Assembly (NCBI GenBank): GCA_963965975.1
Contig: OZ014415.1
Coordinates: forward strand, 8,843,057 to 8,907,056
Reading direction: 5' to 3'
From: Xestospongia bergquistia
Taxonomy: Eukaryota > Porifera > Demospongiae > Haplosclerida > Petrosiidae
DNA: 64,000 nucleotides
Made by a program: the position numbers and the translations under genes. The notes under the pieces are model-generated. The model had not been told where the DNA came from, ran no database searches, and saw only the letters and a list, made by a program, of their open reading frames with translations. This document shows, one piece after another, positions 1,817 through 46,135 of this stretch (position 1 is the first letter of the stretch; each line of letters starts with the position of its first letter).

Positions 1817-4800
1817 TTATATGAAAGATTGGAAGTTTGCATAGGTACTAAATGACTGGACATATTCTAGTAGAGCTCGATAAACAAATATGTATTGGTC
1901 CTGTGGGTGGAGTTACAATAAAGTGATGTAACAATGACATCATTAACTGACCAGTGTTTGGACCATATTACATCTTTGTGTACGTAAATGTTTTACAATA
2001 TTAAAAACATTAACAAGATGTTCTATCTTCACTCTCTCAATGCCAATACTAAGAGCACAAAATGCTCCAGTACGCCCAACACCAGCACTAAATAGTTACA
2101 GCCTCAGAAATTATATCTATAAGCTATATTGTACTAACCTGCAGTGGACTACGATAGGCTTGTTACCAGTCTGTTGCTGTCGTTTTATGACTTGATCTAT
2201 TAGATCAATCATTCCTTCCCCACTTTTAGGAGCCCCACTTCTAGGCCATGTAGTAAAATTGAACTGATGAACTATACGAGATTCACTGGAATCACGCTAT
2301 AAATAGTAACATAACTGCATCAAACTGGGTATTGTAATTAAATGTAATATTTTTAGCAACATGCTATAAAAATAGTAATATAGCATTACAAATAGCATAG
2401 TATGTTAAATCATAAATAAAATAGTACTATAAATAGTAACAGTAATATAAATAGTAGCATAGCACTTGAAAAAGTACTATAAATAGTAACATTATACTTA
2501 CTGTAGTATAAGTGATTTTCATTTGTCGATGTATATAATCATTTAGAGTATTCTCACTTTCCAATAAAATACTGATTTTTCCAAAATTAACTTCCATACC
2601 AACTCTCTTTGGCCAGTATTGAACACTCATTACCTAATGATAACTATAATTATTATAGTAATTGTAGGGGGTATCCTCACCTGGCCTTTCTCCTCTAATT
2701 TAGACAACATTACAACTGTATTTACTTGCTGTTCCCATATCATACGCCAAAAATCATTGACTGTATTCTGAAGAGGTCCTTGTGTAGCAATAAAAACATT
2801 CTTTGCCTTATATCCCTATAATAATAATATTAATTATTGTTATAACACCTCCAATAATACTACACAATGATCTAATAATATACTCACATCAATAAAACTA
2901 GCATTGATGTAATCAGATCCAATTTCTCCTGGTCGTTTTGTAAGTTTGACACGATTATGATCATCTAAAATTAATGAATTAACTTCTTAAAAATTGAATA
3001 AGTTGACAACTAGAGACATTGACAAATGGATAGGTCCATAAACTTACAAGGGATTACATTAAGTAATCTATTTTTGAATTTATTGGCATCGTTTCTTGCA
3101 CTACTAAAATCATTAAAAAGATTCTTGTCATTTTGGAGGTTCTAAAAGATTGTATTACATCATTTAAATAACTGACGTGAGCACGACTTACTGCAAACTC
3201 TATGGAGAATCCAGTCTCTCCTTCTTCAGACTCTTCTTCTAATTCTCCCATTCTATCTTCAAGCTGTTCAACAGCTATATCAGTCCATCCTGTCGCTAAC
3301 ACTTCAAGTAATGCATCATGAATGAAGATGTATTGCGCCTATACAACAGAGAGGTTGAAGGATGAAATAAAGATAGAATGACTGACCTCAGTTTGTACCA
3401 TATGGTTCCTATCTTCTCTCATATTGCGAACAAAACTGTATGGATTAACTTCTTGTTCATGCTCTGCTCGCTGCATTTCAACATCAATGGTTACTAAAGT
3501 CCCAGTTCGACCAACACCAGCACTGTATAATGCATTATATACTAGTACCTGTATAATATCGTACATTACCTGCAGTGTATTACCATAGGTCTGAAGTCAT
3601 TGTATTTATGATGACGACGTAATGTACGTATGAACTGAAGAACAGGTGTTGGATGACGAGGAACTCCAAAGTCAGGCCAGGAAGTATAATGAAATTGTTT
3701 GACTTCACGCGTCTCTTTATGATCATGCTATATTAAGAAAATGTAAATAATTTGAAGGAAATATAACGTTATCGCTTACAGCTGAGATCTCAAATACTCG
3801 TATGCAATAGTCAGCATGTGATATAGATCTAATGAGAGTAACAGCGATGTTACCAAACTGTTCAGTAGATCCTACATTATCAGGCCAATACTGACTACAT
3901 TTTACCTATAAAATCACAGGATTAAGGCTAATTATAGTATCAATATTAATATACCCTCATTTTCTCTACTAAGTTAGTTAACATGACAACTGTTGGAACA
4001 TTGTAATCCCAAACCATACGCCAAAAATCTCCTACAGTATCTGGTAATGGACCTTGAGTAGCAATGAACTCTTTCTCTCTATTGTAGCCCTGTATTATTA
4101 GAGATAATTAATAATATTATTACTAGGGATTAACTCACTTTAATGAAGTTAGCATTAATGTAATCATGAGGAAAGTCTTCCACTGGAATTAATTTGACAC
4201 GAGAATGATCATCTGGTAATTGTAAAATTATTATTTAATATAAAATTAATTTCGTCTTACAGCATTGTATATTAGCATATCTATTTCTCAACTTGTTCAT
4301 TGGATTAAGACAAACATCAACTGATGGATGAGGGGATGCACGACATATCTCCTATAAAATGACATATTTAATTATTAATTAAATAACACTATCTCATACA
4401 TCATATTCCTGACTGAACATGTAATTATCATTAGCATGGAGTCGATCTACTATCTTCTCAAATTCTCCAACAGATATCGGATTATGTCCTTCATAAATTG
4501 GGCCTGTACCAACGGGTTCTCCATCAATATCCAGGAAAGCAGGGTTTGGGATGGAGGGCAGAGAGAGTTCAGATGTCATATTGATAACTTCATTACGATC
4601 CTTCTGTGTCCATTAAAAATAACAATATAATATAATTATTATTGTTTTACTTTGCTAAATGTTTTTCCAATATTAAAACCACCACTTCGTCTCCTAAATG
4701 ATAGACAAATGGATGGATAGATGGACAAATGGATGGATAGATGGACAAATGGACAGATAGATAGACAAATGGATGGATAGATGGACAAATGAATAAATGC

Positions 4801-7800
4801 ACAGACAAACACAAACACTAACTTGTAGACCACAACAACTATTATTATTACAACTATAATAATAATAATAATAAGTAATAAGACAGTCACTACTGATCCA
4901 GCTATAGCTGGTCTTGGATCACCCACTACAATAACAAGACAACATCAACAATATAATAAATAATAACATAATAAGATAATACTATAGTAATATAAAGAGT
5001 ATTATAATACCTGTAGTAATAGCGACAGTATAATTACTGGATGTAAATAAATTATATTGACGAGTGCTTGTCTGTTTAGTGGCTCCATTCAAATCCTATC
5101 AATTAATGTATTTATTATAAATTATATTCATATAATGTCACTTACATTGTTAGCTATAGGATATGCTCGTAAAAAGAATGTAAATGATGAACCATAACGA
5201 AGGGGTCCATTATAATATTGTGATTTATCTTTAGGTTGATTATTAGGGTCTCCAATAACATATAGACTATTAGATGGGAATAGATCACTACCAAATTCAG
5301 CTGCAATATATGCAACATTAAAGGAATCAGTATTGGAGATTTCATCATAACTTTTAAAACTATCTAGTGATGGAAACAGGTTGTCAGGGGAATCTGATGG
5401 TAGGGATGATCCACTAATTAATACTGCTATTACTTGATAATGACTAGAAATAAGTTATGGAATAAATTTAAAATTATTTTAATTATTAATTACCTTATTG
5501 GTCCATTAATATTAGAGGGTTCAGTAATCTGTATTGTCACTTTACGACCATCAACAGCATCTGCTGGTAGAACAGGCTTAGCAAGAGGGGGTGGAGCTAG
5601 TTATTAAAAGAGAATAATGAGTTAGACCCTCTTATTAATTGTACTTACGTTCCACTATTGTATCTACTGATATACTATCACTTCGAGGACTTTCTCCAGC
5701 ACCATTAATAGCAGTCACTGCTATTGTGTATGTACTACGTGGATAAAGGTCTAGTAAGGTTGTCATGGTAACAGTATAGGAGACAGTAGTCACTCTTTCT
5801 AAGTTGTTGTAACTTGAATCGTCAACAGTGTAACTCTTTGAAGGTTGATAGTATATCTATTAATATAGTTTGAATAATAGAATGCGCAATGGACGCATAA
5901 TTTTGCATAACAGATGCGTACTGTTGCATAACTGACACTTAATGTTGCATTATTAATACATAACAAATGGATGCATAATGGATACACAATGATGTAGAGA
6001 TGATTCTTAAATGACTTCACTAACTTTAAAAGATGATATGATACCATTAGGACATGTTGGAGTGTACCAAGTAATTGATATATTTCTACTCCCACTTGAT
6101 ATTTTCCGAAGATAACCAGGAGCACATGACGCTAATAATAAGAAACAATTTAACATAATAACTGAAAACATAAGAGTGATGTCACATACTGTCATTGAGT
6201 GTTCTTTTTATTACAGTAGCATCTGGTCCAAACCCAATAGCAGTACCAGCTGATACAGTAAATGTATAGATTGTATATATATTTAGTCCATTAATTTGTG
6301 CAGTAGTTTCTCTGCCAATGTAGATAGTTTTTCTAACAGAAATTGGTTGATTAGGATTAGTTGTTGTAGTAATCCGATGACGTGTAATGTTGCCATTCTG
6401 GTAAAACAGGTCTGGCAAGTTCCAGGAGAGGATGACTGATCTTGATGTATGAGAATAAGCTATTAGATTTTGTGGTTCTTGATCAGGTTCTACAGAGAGA
6501 GAACATTGATATCACTATAACAAAGTACTACCTTACCATCTTCTAATGTGAATGTTGTACAATGATCAGTTGATACTGGACTACCTCCAATAATAGTGTA
6601 AGCAATAATAGAAAATGAGTATGAAGTGGCTTTCCAAAGTTGAGGTATCATGAATTCAGTACTGTTAGTTGGTGTAGTCATTGTAGAACTGTTATTATCA
6701 ATGGTATAGTTTAGACCAGATATAGACATTAATGGTTTGTATGTAATAGTATAATAGTGAATGAGACCATTAGCTTGTAATGGTACACGCCAAGAGAGAT
6801 CTATGGCTGTAGAACTGTTGGCTGTTGCTTGACAGTCATACGGAGGAGAATCGGGAGCTAGGGGAGAGAGAAAGTTATATACAAGTATCATTACACTTAC
6901 AATCAGGTTCTGTTCGTATTGGTGTTGAGGGTATTCCTTTATCAAAATCACTGCATCCAATATCGTTACAGGCCACTACAGTTAACTGATATTTAGTATA
7001 AGGGATAATACCACTAGTAATGTTATAAGATGTAACGCTAGTTGTAGTATACTCTGAATTGGATGGATAGACTAAAACATAAGATTGATTAGCTCTGTCC
7101 AAATCTTTCTGATATACATAATATCCCTTAATAGGGTTGTTCCCATTAAAATCTGGACTCCAGGTAACAAATATAGTACGAGCTGTAAAACTATCAACTT
7201 TAACATTAATAGGTGGATCAGGACGTTCTGTAAGAGATGAACATTAAACAGATAATGCTAGTATAATCTTGACTTACCTAGTACTGTCACTGATATTAGA
7301 CCTGACTCAGCAGTTAGTTTACCAGTAACTGGTAACATGTTTGTACCTACACAAGAATAGTTTGCAGTATCTGCTCGTGTTACATTTTTAAATCTCAATA
7401 ATCCAACAGATCCTATGTCCATTATATTAGGAACATTAGCAATGTCAGCATTTAGTAATTCTTGAGGAACAGATAACTCTGATATTTCTGTGACACGTAC
7501 AGTTTCCATGGTAATACTGGGATTGGATTGTATGGGGACACTGTTATTATTCCAACTAATATTCACAAGAGGGTATCCAGTGACAATACAAAATAAAGTA
7601 AGAGGTTGAGAGATCAGTAATGATGTAGAATTAGATTGTATATGTATCACAGGAGATACTAGAAGAAAGAGATCATTATAACGTATTCAATATTGTAATA
7701 TAACTTACCATGTACTGTTAATAATGCACTACTTGATTTACTACCAACATAGTTAGTAATAATACATTGATAGATACCACGATCTTCATATTGTAGATTA

Positions 7801-10800
7801 TAAACTGTCAAACTTCCAAAGCTAATGCTAGTATTATCTCTAATAATAGAATACTTATTGCTAGCTATAACTTGAGCTGTATTCAGTAAGTTCTTAGTAT
7901 TATTGAATATCCAATAAACTTGATGAGGTGGATCAGCAATAGCTTCACAATTAAATGTCACATCTTGTCCATCAATAACTGTCTCAGCAGAAGGTCTCTT
8001 AATAAAATACGGTGGACCTATATATAGAATATCATTTTCAAAAGTTAGTATGTATTACTGACCATGTACAATGATATCAATATGGTTGTAATCTATTCCA
8101 GCTGGGTTTGTAACCAAGAGAAAATAACGACCTTCATCAGTTTGATTGATGTTACTTATTTTTAGACTCAGTTTATCTGAAGTAAAAGTGTATATTGAGT
8201 TTCCAATTCTAGTGGATAGTCCAGTAATTTCCAGGTTCTTAGTATCGTAAGGAGAAGAGGAGAAATCTCCAGAGAATATCCACCTAATATTGTCAGAAGT
8301 TACATTTGGAACAGCATTGTCAATTCTAAAACTAAGAGTGGTAAAATTATCTTCAATTCCAATAATATGTCTATCTCCTTCCAATGGAACAACAACAGGT
8401 AATACTGAAAACAGAGTAATAAAAATAAATATCATTACAATATTCTACTTACCTTGTACAAAGACATTAAAGTTGACAATGACTTCAGTTACTACATTAG
8501 AAGCATTGCAAGAGAATGGACCCGTATCAGTACCATCACTAACTAATGTTAATGTTTGAGTTGTTATATAAATTAATCCATCTGGTGTGTTATAGTTCTG
8601 AATATTTTGTCCACTCAATGTAATGCGACTGTTAATGTCATTACCACTACCATCAAGTAGGAGAGAGTTTCTATACCAAGTCAGAGTGGGTGAAGGTATA
8701 CCAGTTGCTTTACAAGTTAATACAATAGAATTTGATTCATTGACAATAAAAGTCCAATTTGAAATTGGATAGTGAATGATTGGAGTAACTACAAGAGAAA
8801 TGATTTTAAGTAAGAGTATATTTTACTTACCATGTACAATCAGATACGCTGTACTATTGTACTCAATGACACTGTTTTCCGCAGAACATATATAACTTCC
8901 CACATCAGAAGGTATTGATATAGGCAAAGTAAGGATACTAGTGATTATTCTATCACCAGATAATGTCTCATGTATCAAAGAAGTATTAGTAACTAGTTTT
9001 GTAACAACTTGAGCTTCGGTCTGTCTGTACCATTTGATAGTAGGTCTAGGATGACCACTAACAGTACATGTAAAGGATACAGAATGTGGTTGTATTATTG
9101 TAACATTTATTGGAGGACCAGTTATTACAGGAGCAACTATAACAACAATAGTAGTGACTTATAAATAAAAATATTATCTCACCTAATACATCTAAAGAGA
9201 ACTTGTCAGTATTATTACCAGCAACATTAGTAGCTGTACAATAATAGTTTGTATTGCTGTCATTATCTTGAGCATCAGTTAGCGTAAGTACTTCAGTTAT
9301 ACGATAGATCAGAGATGATAACAATGTGCTCATAGATGATATTGAGATCCTGGCATCAGTCTTATTATAGATCATAGTCCCATTCCTATACCAGGTAATA
9401 CTGGGTTTGGGGACACCTCTAGCTATACATTGGAATGAGACTGAAGAGTTCTCATTAACAGTGTAGGCTGATTGATTCACAGTAATGTTTGGAGTAACTA
9501 TAATAAAGATAGTAATATATCAGTGATATAAGTGTTACTAACCATATACAGTGAGATATGCTGATGTAGTTACATTATTAACACTATTAGATATCACACA
9601 GTCATAGAGTCCAGTATCAAGAGGAGTTGATGTCATTATAACTAATGTACTAGTAACTCCAGTAGCTGATGTATTAGTAGTTGTAATAGTATAATCTGTA
9701 GATGATTGAAGTAGTTGGTTAGTTCCATTAGTAAATGTTCTAGTCCATGTAATATCAGGTCGTGGTAAACCATTAGCGGAACAATTAAAGATAGCATTAG
9801 CTGGTTGTATAATAGTAATATTAACTGGTTCTTCTATTATATCAGGAATAACTAAAGAGAGAGAAACAATAGACTAAATTAAATGATAATGTTAGTAACT
9901 TACAATTGACAGTAAGGGTGGCTGTTCCAGTCACATTTCCTAGAGGATTTCTACCAATACATTGATATTTTCCATCAAATGTTCGAGATACATTTTGTAA
10001 TTTTAAATTACTAGTTAGTTTAGTAGTGCCTTCTATAGTCTCTGTTATCAGAACATTACTATCATTAGCTAATAGTTTATTCCCATCAACTGAAGAATTA
10101 TACCAGGATAGAGTAGGTCGTTGTAATCCAGATACCACACATGTAAAGATAACATTATTAAATTCAGTAATAGTTTGATTGAGTGGATCTTGTATGAGTC
10201 GAGTACCAACTGTAAGAATTATATTTAATAATTTATAATGTAATAAATAATACTTACAATAGACAGTGAGTCCAAACTTGTCAGTATCATTACCAGCAAT
10301 ATTAGTAGCATTACAAGTATATCCTGTACTAGTATCAGTATTATAAGCATTAGTAAGTGTTAATATTCCTGTGACTTCATAGATGAGAGATGATAACTTA
10401 ATACTTGTGGATGTTAATGTGAATCTTGTGTTATTATAGATCATAATCCCATTCCTATACCAGGTAATACTGGGTTCAGGGACACCTCTAGCTATACATT
10501 GGAATGAGAGTGAAGAGTTCTCATTAACAGTGTAGGCAGATTGATTCACAGTTATGTTTGGAGTAACTATAATAAAGATAGTAATATATCAGTGATATAA
10601 GTGTTACTAACCATATACAGTGAGATATGCTGATGTAGTTACATTATTAACACTATTAGATATCACACAGTCATATAGTCCAGTATCAAGAGGAGTTGAT
10701 GTCATTACAACTAATGTACTAGTAACTCCAGTAGCTGATGTATTAGTAGTTGTAATAGTATAATCTGTAGATGATTGAAGTAGTTGGTTAGTTCCATTAG

Positions 10801-13800
10801 TAAATGTTCTAGTCCATGTAATATCAGGTCGTGGTAAACCATTAGCGGAACAATTAAAGATAGCATTAGCTGGTTGTATAATAGTAATATTAACTGGTTC
10901 TTCTATTATATCAGGAATAACTAAAGAGAGAGAAACAATAGACTAAATTAAATGATAATGTTAGTAACTTACAATTGACAGTAAGGGTGGCTGTTCCAGT
11001 CACATTTCCTAGAGGATTTCTACCAATACATTGATATTTTCCATCAGATGTTCGAGATACATTTTGTAATTTTAAATTACTAGTTAGTTTAGTAGTGCCT
11101 TCTATAGTCTCTGTTATCAGAACATTACTATCATTAGTTAATAGTTTATATCCATCAACTGAAGTATACCAGGATAGAGTAGGTCGTTGTAATCCAGATA
11201 CCACACATGTAAAGATAACATTATTAAATTCAGTAATAGTTTGATTGAGTGGATCTTGTATGAGTCGAGTACCAACTGTAAAAATTATATTTAATAATTT
11301 ATAATGTAATAAATAATACTTACAATAGACAGTGAGTCCAAACTTGTCAGTATCATTACCAGCAATATTAGTAGCATTACAAGTATATCCTGTACTAGTA
11401 TCAGTATTATAAGCATTAGTAAGTGTTAATATTCCTGTGACTTCATAGATGAGAGATGATAATAACTTAATACTTGTGGATGTCAATGTGAATCTTGTGT
11501 TATTATAGATCATAGTCCCATTCCTATACCAGGTAATACTGGGTTCAGGGACACCTCTAGCTATACATTGGAATGAGAGTGAAGAGTTCTCATTAACAGT
11601 GTAGGCTGATTGATTCACAGTAATGTTTGGAGTAACTATAATAAAGATAGTAATATATCAGTGATATAAGTGTTACTAACCATATACAGTGAGATATGCT
11701 GATGTAGTTACATTATTAACACTATTAGATATCACACAGTCATAGAGTCCAGTATCAAGAGGAGTTGATGTCATTATAACCAATGTACTAGTAACTCCAG
11801 TAGCTGATGTATTAGTAGTTGTAATAGTATAATCTGTAGATGATTGAAGTAGTTGGTTAGTTCCATTAGTAAATGTTCTAGTCCATGTAATATCAGGTCG
11901 TGGTAAACCATTAGCTAAACAATTAAAGATAGCATTAGCTGGTTGTATAATAGTAATATTAACTGGTTCTTCTATTATATCAGGAATAACTAAAGAGAGA
12001 GACAATAGACTAAATTAAATGATAATGTTAGTAACTTACAATTGACAATAAGTTTAAACTGTTCTGTATCATTACCAGCTACATTAGTAGCAGTGCAGAA
12101 GTAATAGTCACTATCATTTCTTTTAACATTAGATAGTGTTAAATTAGCTGTAACTTTGTAAATGTCTGATGATAACTGTCCACTTGTAGATGATATCAAG
12201 ATCCTGGTATCAGTCTCATTCGAGAGTACAGCTCCATTCCTATACCAGGTAATACTGAGAATGGGGACACCTGTAGCTGAACATTGGAATAAAACTAATG
12301 AATTTTCATTAACTGTGTAGGTGTTAGCAAATGACACAGCATCAGGTAAGACTATAAAAGAGACACTATAACATAAAAACTTATATTACAACACTTACCA
12401 TATACAGTTAGTGTAGCCAGAGCAGTGATGTATCCTCTAATATTAGATACATTACAAGTATATATCCCTCTATCAGTAAGAGTGATATCAGTTATACTCA
12501 ATTGACTTGATATATAAGTATTGTTAATGACATTTGTCACAACATTAATACTGTATTTATCAGAGTTAGTTAGTAACATGGAACTACTATTACTGACTCG
12601 ATACCAATTTATTACTGGTAATGGCCAGCCATAACCAGAACATAAGAAAGAAGTGTTGTCAATAGAAGTTATAGTAACATTGCTAGCTCCATTTGCTAAT
12701 ATTGGAGAAACTAAAAAGAAAAAAAAACACAATATTTTATAGAATAATAATTTGTAATGACTTACACTCCACAAACAGTTGAAAATCAGCATAGCTCTTA
12801 CCGACACTGTTATGAGCTCCACAGCTATAGTTACCAGTAGAGTCTGCAGTAGGTGAGTTCTCTGTAATATTTTGAGTGACTTTATATAATCCAGAGTCCA
12901 ATAAAGTAACAACAGACTCATTATAAGAACGAAGAGGTACTCTTGTTCCATTATTAAACAATCTATACAAGATAATATAAGGTGGTGGTACACCAGTAGC
13001 TGTACATAGTCCAGTAACTGATTTATACACTGTAGTAATATATATATCTTGATCCGTCAAAACAGAGGGTTTAACTGTAGAAAAAAATGAATAAAATATT
13101 GGTATATTATTTTAGTACCTGATACATTAACAATTGAGTAGTCGTATACTGAATTCACAATATTTTCTGCTGAACAGACATATACACCTGAGTCATTGGC
13201 CTGACTGTTAGTAATGTTAACAATACTGTAGACAGTGTTGTTAGATGTTTCTTCAATTGAAAATATGTTAATAGATTTGTTATTATGTAAAGACTTTTTG
13301 ATCCATTTGACAGATGGTAGAGGAAAACCAGTAACTGTACAATTAAGTGCAAAGTTTTGTGGTGAGGTCACAGTAATGTTGGAGAGAGATGTGATAAAAG
13401 ATGTCTCAGCTATAAGATAAAAAAATATTAAATCATTGCTACTAATGACATCCTTGTTTACATAGTGTCAATGAATCTTCAATTTACATATTTGTATCAG
13501 AAAGGAATTTACTGAGATGTTGGCATGAAAATTCCAAGTGTGTTCTAAGTCATTAATAACATTTATTTTTCAATCATTCATTTCTTTAATATACTGTCAT
13601 TCTCAAAGAAAGCTAACTATATTATAAGAATATTGATCAACTATTAATATTTCTTGATTATACTTGCTATGGTATGTGTCAGTCATTAATTGTTCAAGTT
13701 CTTACTTACCTTTTCCATGTAAAAATAATCCCACAGATACTTTATGTTCATTACCATCTTCATCATCAGCAATGCATGTATAATAGCCTTCATCAGAAGG

Positions 13801-14598
13801 ATTAGTAAAAGGATTTGTTGTGACACCTGGGTCAAACAATCCAGAATCTAACACTCGTCTATGAGCTAGGACACTAGTCCCTAGGCCTTGAGCAGATGCT
13901 ATTGCAAAAATGTCATTAGTCCCTTGACCAGAACCACTACCACCTGCAAAAAAGTTAGAAGTCATAAGAAGTGATCCGCTAGGGTTTATCCACATCCCTT
14001 CACCCATTGCTCCAATACAATGTAACTCAATATTCAAATAGTTGTCATAACCAGCAATGAAGTAAGAGCCATTAGCAACTGACTTCAAATTGACTTGTTC
14101 AAAAACACCTGCCCCTATTTGAGTATAGAACTTTAGTTACTATTAATTATAATATTATACCTGATACATTGACATATATAGAAGCATACAATGTAGTGCC
14201 ATTCGTTAACGTGACATTGCAAGTATAGTTTCCAACATCAATAGAAGTTAATGCTTTAACTGTCGGTCGGTTTAAAGTGGAGATATTTTGTACTTCTTCT
14301 TCATAGAGAGGAAAGCATTCACGAGAGACACAGTCAAACACCCAGTTATAGTCAATGGCAGTTAGGTTAGTATTGCATTCTAATGTCAGTATTTCAGCTA
14401 CTGGAAAAGATGCTTTGTTAGGTGTAATAGACACGAGTTGAGAGTTAGCAGGAACTGTAAAGGAAAGAGAGTATACATAAATTATATTAACCCAGAAACC
14501 ATACCAGTGCATACTGCTATCAAAACTAGCAAACAAAGGACACTCTTCTCTATTCTTATTGTAAAGCAAAGCTTCATTTTCTTCAGCTTTACCTCCAT
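1817..14598 (-). CDS. Receptor-type protein tyrosine phosphatase with about 19 Ig and 5 FN3 domains
   Basis: This is a giant multi-exon gene of roughly 3,000 or more residues. The start at 14598 gives a signal peptide (CLLVLIAV core). Ig-like domains follow, about one per exon, from 14457 down to 7279, each with paired Cys and a YxC motif. About five FN3 domains span 7230-5011. A long Ile/Val transmembrane helix lies near 4860-4900. The cytoplasmic part holds two tandem PTP domains. D1 (about 4400-3190) has NRYANI, the WPDFGVP loop and [11 protein letters not shown], so it should be active. D2 (about 3140-1817) keeps [11 protein letters not shown] but has WPRSGAP in place of WPD, so it is probably impaired. 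The architecture resembles LAR/type IIa receptors but with far more Ig domains. Ligand and substrate are unknown. Exon joints are phase 1, so whole Ig exons can be skipped or duplicated in frame. Confidence 0.93.
4703..4802. repeat. Minisatellite, five 20-bp units, in a phosphatase-gene intron
   Basis: Five contiguous copies of a 20-bp unit (GACAAATGGATGGATAGATG and variants) fill the intron just after the transmembrane exon. On the minus strand the array is open in frame with that exon and adds an apparent hydrophobic tail. The flanking donor and acceptor (TAG before the codons for RRSGG) show that it is intronic. Confidence 0.85.
9370..12050 (-). repeat. Tandem duplication of a 1,069-bp three-Ig exon block
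   Basis: Within the phosphatase gene a block with three Ig exons and their introns recurs with a period of 1,069 bp. The exons begin with [16 protein letters not shown] and VIPDIIEEP. Equivalent points are 9480, 10549 and 11618. Two copies are complete and a third is partial, with the third-exon type at 9543-9852, 10612-10921 and 11681-11990. The introns are also nearly identical. Differences are a few substitutions and in-frame 3-bp indels (for example near 10100/11165 and 10392/11461). Confidence 0.92.
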
Positions 14599-38250: not shown

Positions 38251-40437
38251 TTATTTTGTTGAAGTCTTTGACCAAGGATAAGTCCAAGTAGTTTGTGGTT
38301 GAGACTGTATTAATAAAGGCTGAGACTGAATCCAAGGTGTGGATTGGGATTGTGCCCAAGTGATATGAGTCTGAGTCCAGGGATATGTAGTTTGAGGTTG
38401 AGGCTGTGACCGTGTTGCTTGAGTCTGAGTCCAGGGATAATTAGTATTGGTTTGAGATTGTGGTTGAGTCAGAGTCCAGGGATAAGTACTTGGAATTTCG
38501 GACTGCGGTTGCCAAGGATAAGTAGTTTGAGTATGAGGCTGTGACCACACTGCTTGAACTGGAGTCTGAGGACAAATGGACTGTGCTTGAGTCTGAGTCC
38601 AGGAATAGGACTGAGGATATACAACAGACATTGGTTGAACAGTAGTAGTGGTAGTTAACATATTGTTAAGAGGAGCAGTATTGGGTATAGGATTAGCAGC
38701 TGTGAATGCTCCTGCTCTTTTTTTGACATTATTTATATGTTCCTGTAAAGACAAGTGAAGAGTTAATTCTTTGTTGTCACAAAAATTAATGTTGCATACA
38801 TCACAACAAAATCGAGGATCAATAATATTTTCATTTTTTTGTTTCAGAAGTACATTCCAAGCATGTTCACGTCCTTTATAGTGTAAATCAAGCATGTCTT
38901 GATTACTGGTATTAATATCACATATATCACATTGATACACTGGTTGAGAAGTCTCTTTTAAAGCTTTTGCATGTCGACGACCTTGAAGATGCTTTTGAAA
39001 CTGATCATAACTTACTGTGTATACATTACAAATTTTACAGTACAAAAAAGACAAGTCTTGCCCCTCTGGTTGACTTTCAGTTTCTACCTCCTCTTCTTGT
39101 ATCCATTTCTCTGATATATAAAACATATCTTTAAATTTTGGAATGGCTTTCCCTCTATATTTCCATTCTGCTTCTGCTAATAAGTGACTATAACTTGCTA
39201 TATGAGGTCCTAAGCTGTCTGCAGGACAAGATTTGTAGCACACTCTACAGATAAGTTGTTTAGGACCAGATTCCTGACTTAGTGATGCAGTTATAGATTC
39301 AGCAATCTCAGTCATTTCTCCTGCATCATTTTTTAGTCCTCTTCTGTTCAAAGCTTTTTGATGTTTAGCCCCTACTAAATGAATCTGTAATTGATTAATA
39401 TCTCCAAAAGACAGCTTGCATATCTCGCAATATAAATTACTTCCTTTAGCTTCCCCAGCTGGAACATCTGGTATGTCCTCTGCTTCTTCTTCTACATTGT
39501 TATCTTCAAATGGTAATTGGCTAGTAGGCTCATTAATAACAGGGTCCTTCTCAAAAGTGTCTTCATCAAATTTCTTACCAAATGAAATATCATCATTTGT
39601 GAATGTTGAATATAAATTAGATGAAGGGTCAAAGTCAGAATGTTCTTTGAGTGGAATATCAAACTTTTCTTTGATTGGATGATTAGACAATTTTCTAAGT
39701 GGCAGATCTAGGGGTCCTCTAAATCCATCTGGAGGTCTTCCAAGTGGCTGATCAAATTCTATGGGTTTCATAAGTGGTTGATCAAAGTCTTGAGGTCTGC
39801 TGAGTGGCCGATCAAATTCTTGGGGTCTTCTAAGTGGCCAATCAAATTCTCTAAGTGGTCGATCTAATCCTCTAGGTGGGCGATCACATTTTGGAAATCC
39901 TTTAGGTGATCTATCAAAATTTGGAGAACGTGGCTGATCAAACTCTAGAGGTCCCCTAGGTTGCCAATCAAATTCTGGAGGTCCCCTTGGTGGCTGACCA
40001 AATTGTGGATGTCTCCTAGGTGGATGGTCAAATTCCAAGTGTCTCTTAGATAGCCTATCAAATTCACAGAGTCCTCTTGGTGGCCGATTAAATTCTTGAT
40101 GTCCTCTAAGTGGTCGGTAGAACTTAGAATGATATAAATGATCCCTGTCGGGTGGATATTTCCTAAATGGTGGTTTCTCTAAATATCCTTCTGTTCCATG
40201 ATCCCATTCTGACAGGTCTCTATGTGGGCGTTCCCATTCTTTATGGTGCCGAGGAGGTGGGCCTTCATTATAAGGATTATACCTATTGCTGTAACATTTC
40301 TCTCCCAACCACTGTGGGTATCTACTAAATCGTTCAATATTTTTAATATCAGGATGACCACGCCCTCTACTTATACAAGAATGACTCCAAAATCGATCAG
40401 TGTCAGGTGGATAGCCTCTTCCCCCTCCACCAGCCAT
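38251..40437 (-). CDS. Intronless 728-aa protein with U1/matrin-type zinc fingers
   Basis: One uninterrupted frame. The N-terminal third is Pro/Arg/Asp-rich with about a dozen repeats on the theme RPPRG-x-x-EFD, each near 10-13 residues. The middle has four to five C2H2 fingers of the long-linker U1/JAZ type. Examples are LYCEICKLSFGDINQLQIHL with AKHQKAL, LYCKICNVYTVSYDQFQKHL with GRRHAKAL, YQCDICDIN..., and FCCDVCNINF.... These bind dsRNA or structured RNA in ZNF346-like proteins. The C-terminus is a Gln/Thr/Trp-rich tail repeating YPWTQTQ. All neighbours are intron-rich, so this is perhaps a retrogene. No orthologue recognised. Confidence 0.85.
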   Translation of the reverse strand: MAGGGGRGYPPDTDRFWSHSCISRGRGHPDIKNIERFSRYPQWLGEKCYSNRYNPYNEGPPPRHHKEWERPHRDLSEWDHGTEGYLEKPPFRKYPPDRDHLYHSKFYRPLRGHQEFNRPPRGLCEFDRLSKRHLEFDHPPRRHPQFGQPPRGPPEFDWQPRGPLEFDQPRSPNFDRSPKGFPKCDRPPRGLDRPLREFDWPLRRPQEFDRPLSRPQDFDQPLMKPIEFDQPLGRPPDGFRGPLDLPLRKLSNHPIKEKFDIPLKEHSDFDPSSNLYSTFTNDDISFGKKFDEDTFEKDPVINEPTSQLPFEDNNVEEEAEDIPDVPAGEAKGSNLYCEICKLSFGDINQLQIHLVGAKHQKALNRRGLKNDAGEMTEIAESITASLSQESGPKQLICRVCYKSCPADSLGPHIASYSHLLAEAEWKYRGKAIPKFKDMFYISEKWIQEEEVETESQPEGQDLSFLYCKICNVYTVSYDQFQKHLQGRRHAKALKETSQPVYQCDICDINTSNQDMLDLHYKGREHAWNVLLKQKNENIIDPRFCCDVCNINFCDNKELTLHLSLQEHINNVKKRAGAFTAANPIPNTAPLNNMLTTTTTVQPMSVVYPQSYSWTQTQAQSICPQTPVQAVWSQPHTQTTYPWQPQSEIPSTYPWTLTQPQSQTNTNYPWTQTQATRSQPQPQTTYPWTQTHITWAQSQSTPWIQSQPLLIQSQPQTTWTYPWSKTSTK

Positions 40438-41974: not shown

Positions 41975-46135
<4,161 letters not shown>

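Follow-up and report, generated by a model that had tools for sequence, protein, structure and literature searches.

A block of three consecutive exons, each encoding a single immunoglobulin (Ig) domain, very probably underwent a real and recent tandem amplification within one gene of the sponge Xestospongia bergquistia, and this gene encodes a LAR-like receptor phosphatase. The window analyzed here is a 64-kb stretch of contig C5 (C5:8843057-8907056) in a genome assembly of 146.5 Mb and 21 contigs, and all positions below refer to the window unless a contig is named. The gene lies on the minus strand, which corrects the first-pass annotation of this DNA. It offers a clean, young example of a multi-Ig receptor growing by blocks, with the breakpoints located inside homologous exons.

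Direct-repeat analysis of the window placed matching segments at 9359-9658, 10428-10727, and 11497-11796, spaced 1069 and 1069 bp apart (1066-1067 bp where indels fall), with further repeat families spanning 9359 to about 12052. The middle exons, listed in the direction of transcription, are A0, B1, A1, C1, B2, A2, C2, B3, A3, and D, with one Ig-like domain per exon, giving the layout A0-[B A C]-[B A C]-[B A]-D. On repeat alignment, block copy 1 (10986-12052) contains B1 (11989-11681), A1 (11635-11324), and C1 (11275-10973), the last bases of C1 being counted as the start of the next block, and copy 2 (9917-10985) contains B2 (10920-10612), A2 (10566-10258), and C2 (10209-9904). Copy 3 (9359-9916) is composed of B3 (9851-9543) plus the beginning of A3 (9497-9183). 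Two complete copies and a partial one had been claimed before; the partial copy is present, but it ends inside exon A3, where identity falls at 9359, and not at an intron. The remainder of A3 (9183-9358) lies outside the near-identical repeat, and over the whole exon A1 and A3 share 73% protein identity. At the other end, similarity starts in the last bases of A0; these bases and the intron after A0 align with the end of C and the intron after C.

Copies 1 and 2 differed by 15 substitutions over 1,077 compared columns, corresponding to 98.6% identity. The exons carried 13 substitutions and two in-frame 3-bp indels over about 920 bp (five substitutions for B1-B2, four each for A1-A2 and C1-C2), and the introns carried one substitution and one 2-bp indel over about 143 bp. 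The introns are therefore as alike as the exons, in agreement with the first-pass annotation, whereas its description of the indels as in-frame 3-bp changes applies to the exons and fails for the intron with the 2-bp indel. At the protein level, the duplicate exons B2, A2, C2, and B3 were 96-99% identical to their counterparts. In all 17 listed exons the length is a multiple of 3, the joints are phase 1, and the ends are GT-AG, so that, as had been proposed, the frame is kept for any number of blocks. Introns are 45-52 bp inside the array and 42-55 bp in and around it.

A genome-wide DNA search with window positions 10300-11400 returned six matches, all inside this phosphatase gene. A transposon or satellite origin of the block was rejected, since it consists of coding sequence and matched only within one gene in that search; Rfam and tRNA scans of the 64-kb window gave no matches. 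Self-BLAST of the window (direct repeats of at least 150 bp, at least 85% identity, E 1e-20) found, besides the array, only a minisatellite at 42.2-43.2 kb, indicating that the block repeat is far beyond chance.

The array sits in a row of 19 consecutive single-domain exons. Pfam scanning covered 15 of them, 12 of which passed an Ig cut-off, and at least 16 of the 19 are taken as Ig, because the four exons outside the scan (B2, A2, C2, and B3) are near-copies of scanned ones. The three others were F, which passed Receptor_2B4 only, the weakly Ig-like e2 (14163-14458; Ig_2 21.2 bits against a cut-off of 27), and e3 (14114-13710), which had no Pfam match. Just upstream of e2, a probable signal-peptide exon was read by eye near 14508-14560. 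The exons e4 (13409-13120), e5 (13074-12766), and e6 (12399-12710; Ig_3 40.5 bits, I-set 40.2 bits) are Ig, as is A0 (12040-12351), an older relative of A1-A3 with 54-57% protein identity to them. Beyond the array, D, E, F, G, and H occupy 7278-9136, and D, E, G, and H passed the Ig cut-off.

Between the Ig row and the membrane segment lies a fibronectin type III (FN3) region (5641-7227), in which three pieces exceeded the fn3 cut-off (45.7, 43.5, and 31.6 bits), exon 6857-6537 being outside the scan; Pfam scanning of the pieces 6013-6207 and 5134-5454 gave no match. A run of Leu, Ile, and Val at 4825-4916, judged by eye only, is a probable transmembrane segment. It is followed by two tandem intracellular protein tyrosine phosphatase (PTP) domains. 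Domain D1 (3290-4614), assigned from Pfam, motifs, and structure matches, has intact active-site motifs, namely WPDFG and a ten-letter motif read across an intron. In D2 (1830-3119), assigned from PF00102 and motifs, a ten-letter motif was also read and WPRSG replaces WPD. PF00102 matched in four pieces, three of them above the cut-off; within D2, piece 2636-2815 was above it and piece 2433-2633 below.

When hand-spliced D1 was compared with solved structures, the best five of 259 PDB matches were PTPRS or LAR/PTPRF (473-485 bits), followed by PTPRA (420), these being whole-chain scores in which both PTP domains are summed. A single-domain PTPRD chain scored far lower (197.9), and the best single-domain chain was 2nv5 (304), whose name gives no subtype. 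By this ranking, which is one of scores and not a tree, D1 appears closer to R2A than to other receptor phosphatase subtypes, and the earlier naming of the gene as a receptor phosphatase holds. As in the LAR/R2A phosphatases (PTPRS, PTPRF, and PTPRD), Ig domains are followed by FN3 and then tandem PTP domains, and from its sequence the gene resembles and probably works like a LAR-type receptor phosphatase, with predicted activity. It departs from that family in its N-terminus: PTPRS has three Ig domains (PMC4239663), in contrast to the 19 single-domain exons found here. The first-pass annotation was thus right about the three Ig domains of LAR, but the repeated block is made of three adjacent exons from the middle of the row rather than of a multiplied LAR trio.

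Related Ig exons of older origin (A0, A, and A3) could have provided targets for mispairing, and unequal crossing-over would then have converted A0-[B-A-C]-[B-A3]-D into A0-[B-A-C]-[B-A-C]-[B-A3]-D. Each such event would add or remove three Ig domains with the frame intact, and conversion between copies may have gone on after amplification. Written as A0-X-Y-X-Y-X-Z-D, where X is B plus the first part of A, the order is what unequal crossing-over between two X segments would be expected to produce. The differences between copies 1 and 2 (pS 0.028, pN 0.011) indicate a young duplication under some constraint overall. The pairs A1-A3 (pS about 0.28) and A0-A1 (pS about 0.47) are much older, indicating that the exon row grew in several steps. 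Positive selection on the new copies was considered and rejected, as pN was below pS, and the four non-synonymous and one synonymous changes of C1-C2 alone are too few.

The region shared by all three copies (columns 0-553) contained 11 events after neighboring columns were merged. All four events specific to copy 1 fell in columns 4-273, a stretch over which copies 2 and 3 do not differ, and the seven confined to copy 2 or copy 3 all fell from column 277 onward. A max-chi permutation test devised after inspection of the data gave a borderline p=0.046, so this mosaic pattern is suggestive only; it comes from three copies in one assembly, with B and C lacking an outgroup. On the right side of the shared region, copies 1 and 2 differ at five sites. 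Given the identity of copies 2 and 3 on the left and the differences between copies 1 and 2 on the right, a single simple crossover is not enough, and later conversion or different parental alleles would be needed.

The same left-right pattern would also fit an old array that was duplicated early and homogenized by gene conversion, with a block number that is possibly fixed, and the older relatives A0, D, and E do suggest stepwise growth of the row over a long time. Introns and synonymous sites as alike as the rest, and sharp ends inside exons, are predicted by both models and are not decisive, and no observation spoke directly against an old, homogenized array; we regard it as unlikely. Near-identical tandem copies are also a classic assembly trap, in which a block is falsely repeated or alleles are set in tandem. 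However, every copy has private substitutions, the outer copies have unique flanks, the frame and splice sites are intact throughout, and the 2.7-kb array lies within an 8.9-Mb contig and in a window without N, which makes an artefact highly improbable. The private changes of each copy, together with the weak mosaic signal, favor unequal crossing-over or gene conversion over assembly error. Recent change by one of these two processes, as originally suggested, is well supported as the mechanism by the identity, the private changes, and the borderline mosaic test.

Searches of the whole genome found at least 194 matches to the PTP family, many of them clustered (C2, C3, C5, C9, and C10), and regularly spaced Ig exons at other places. 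Ten 10-kb stretches were examined, eight around regularly spaced Ig exons and two elsewhere. At C5:425001-435000 and 449001-499000 (L057, L058, and L061-L064), Ig-FN3-phosphatase genes that carry long arrays of Ig exons form a cluster. One Ig-FN3-PTP model at C5:449-474 kb, which starts at the edge of the examined stretch, comprises 57 exons encoding 5,923 aa with 47 Ig matches; at C5:449-467 kb it contains repeated Ig blocks, about 0.95 and 1.6 kb long, that share roughly 86-96% identity (best, 95.7% over 6.4 kb). Two models downstream of it had 13 and 7 Ig matches and a 10-kb piece further upstream had 30, counts made with a profile built from the window's gene and including fragments. The gene finder was likewise trained on exons of the window's gene, and models of the phosphatase ends are rough; a piece of the second model in this cluster passed the Ig and fn3 cut-offs. 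The cluster at C5:425-510 kb thus resembles the window's gene in combining Ig, FN3, and PTP domains with tandem Ig exon blocks, and differs in its longer, more diverged arrays.

Further arrays were present at C5:425-435 kb, C5:479-482 kb, C2:11.33 Mb, and C2:11.45 Mb (96.7% over 1.9 kb). The two C2 genes (L059 and L060) have Ig arrays about 82-88% and 95-97% alike, and the proteins predicted from them are similar both to one another and to adhesion GPCRs. A domain scan of three pieces of the first C2 gene gave VWA, a weak secretin-family seven-transmembrane match (7tm_2, 24.7 bits against a cut-off of 20.6), and no match, respectively. Among the arrays examined, the blocks of the window are the most alike. 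A survey of 50 loci (L007-L056) revealed repeats in four phosphatase loci other than the window's gene (L013, L015, L016, and L020; 93.5-95.3% identity, shifts of 1.5-2.9 kb). Among its 16 Ig loci (L041-L056, with L052 being the window's gene), only L054, one of these two C2 genes, had tandem blocks of at least 85% identity within its 3.2 kb. Block amplification is not general among Ig loci. Some further receptor genes carry arrays that are larger and more diverged, built by the same process. Because the C5 and C2 arrays were chosen for their regular spacing, counting them gives no frequency, and from the two stretches examined outside receptor clusters we claim no genome-wide base rate. One of these two, L065, showed no repeat at the thresholds used. 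The other, L066 (C4:4000001-4010000), is tandem satellite over its whole 10 kb, with a unit near 138 bp.

Coding exon-block arrays are an already known kind of structure, of which LPA KIV-2, titin, and nebulin are examples, and the phosphatase array, with near-identical whole-exon blocks that keep the frame, is a further case. In human LPA, the kringle IV type 2 units are near-identical exon pairs, and as in the sponge gene, tandem coding-exon units change the number of extracellular domains in frame. According to PMC11462820, the LPA units are 5.6 kb long, encode a kringle, and number 1-40 per allele, versus two and a half copies of a 1.07-kb Ig block in one assembly here. The nebulin triplicate and titin segmental duplication regions also repeat blocks within one gene, and recurrent copy-number variation has been shown for them (PMC9142044). 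They encode muscle proteins, in contrast to the signaling receptor ectodomain described here, known from one assembly. Growth of domain repeats is assumed to proceed via internal tandem duplication, with Ig among the domains most often duplicated singly (PMC1553488), which makes a step of three Ig domains less usual. Within the available literature on sponge Ig exon arrays and phosphatase expansions, with subscription papers mostly outside this scope, neither the gene nor the arrays were found, and PMC5336234, in the part available, treats a sponge R3 phosphatase without an account of either.

The copies differ in number more than in sequence, which favors a change in ectodomain length or valency. 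Each Ig domain measures about 4 nm, so one block would add roughly 12 nm if extended. Instead of creating new specificities, amplification would probably lengthen the ectodomain and present one surface more often; this might alter reach and valency where the receptor contacts cells or matrix, with the position of the catalytic D1 shifting along.

The first-pass annotation also suggested self/non-self diversity, for which we found no support. Under such a model, alternative splicing or copy-number variation would label self in the manner of Dscam or allorecognition systems, and this would be compatible with recent amplification. Dscam-type genes use alternative Ig exons, and Ig receptors have allorecognition roles in other animals. 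Duplicated Ig exons are shared with Dscam, the symmetric phase-1 exons would permit any inclusion pattern, and Ig number varies widely among the phosphatase gene models. Unlike in Dscam, however, the copies are nearly identical, so that choosing among them would change little, and the sequence carries no sign of mutually exclusive use. Moreover, pN is below pS overall, though not for C1-C2 alone, and the introns of the array measure 45-52 bp. In Amphimedon queenslandica, introns are markedly small, with averages of 253-327 bp that still exceed those of the array, and among forms of alternative splicing, exon skipping is the least common, as reported in PMC4432959. That the copies are nearly identical speaks against a diversity device, which we consider very unlikely; alternative splicing as the purpose of the array was rejected, since the sequence gives it no support and near-identical copies offer little gain.

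Within one genome, receptors of two kinds, phosphatases and apparent GPCRs, show this process in parallel. We consider it improbable that several receptor families, namely LAR-like phosphatases and apparent adhesion GPCRs, have in common an exon-block engine that is still running and renders the length of the ectodomain hypervariable among individuals, with length and not sequence setting signaling contacts and perhaps serving as a graft-recognition cue. Sponges are a lineage without classical adaptive recognition genes, and this gene allows a direct test of ectodomain length variation between individuals.

Two other repeats were observed in the window. The minisatellite occupies 42219-43160, for which Tandem Repeats Finder reported units of 43, 76, and 119 bp. 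A 728-aa open reading frame at 38251-40437 includes, at 39.73-40.11 kb, a coding tandem repeat of about 30 bp in which proline, arginine, aspartate, and phenylalanine are abundant.
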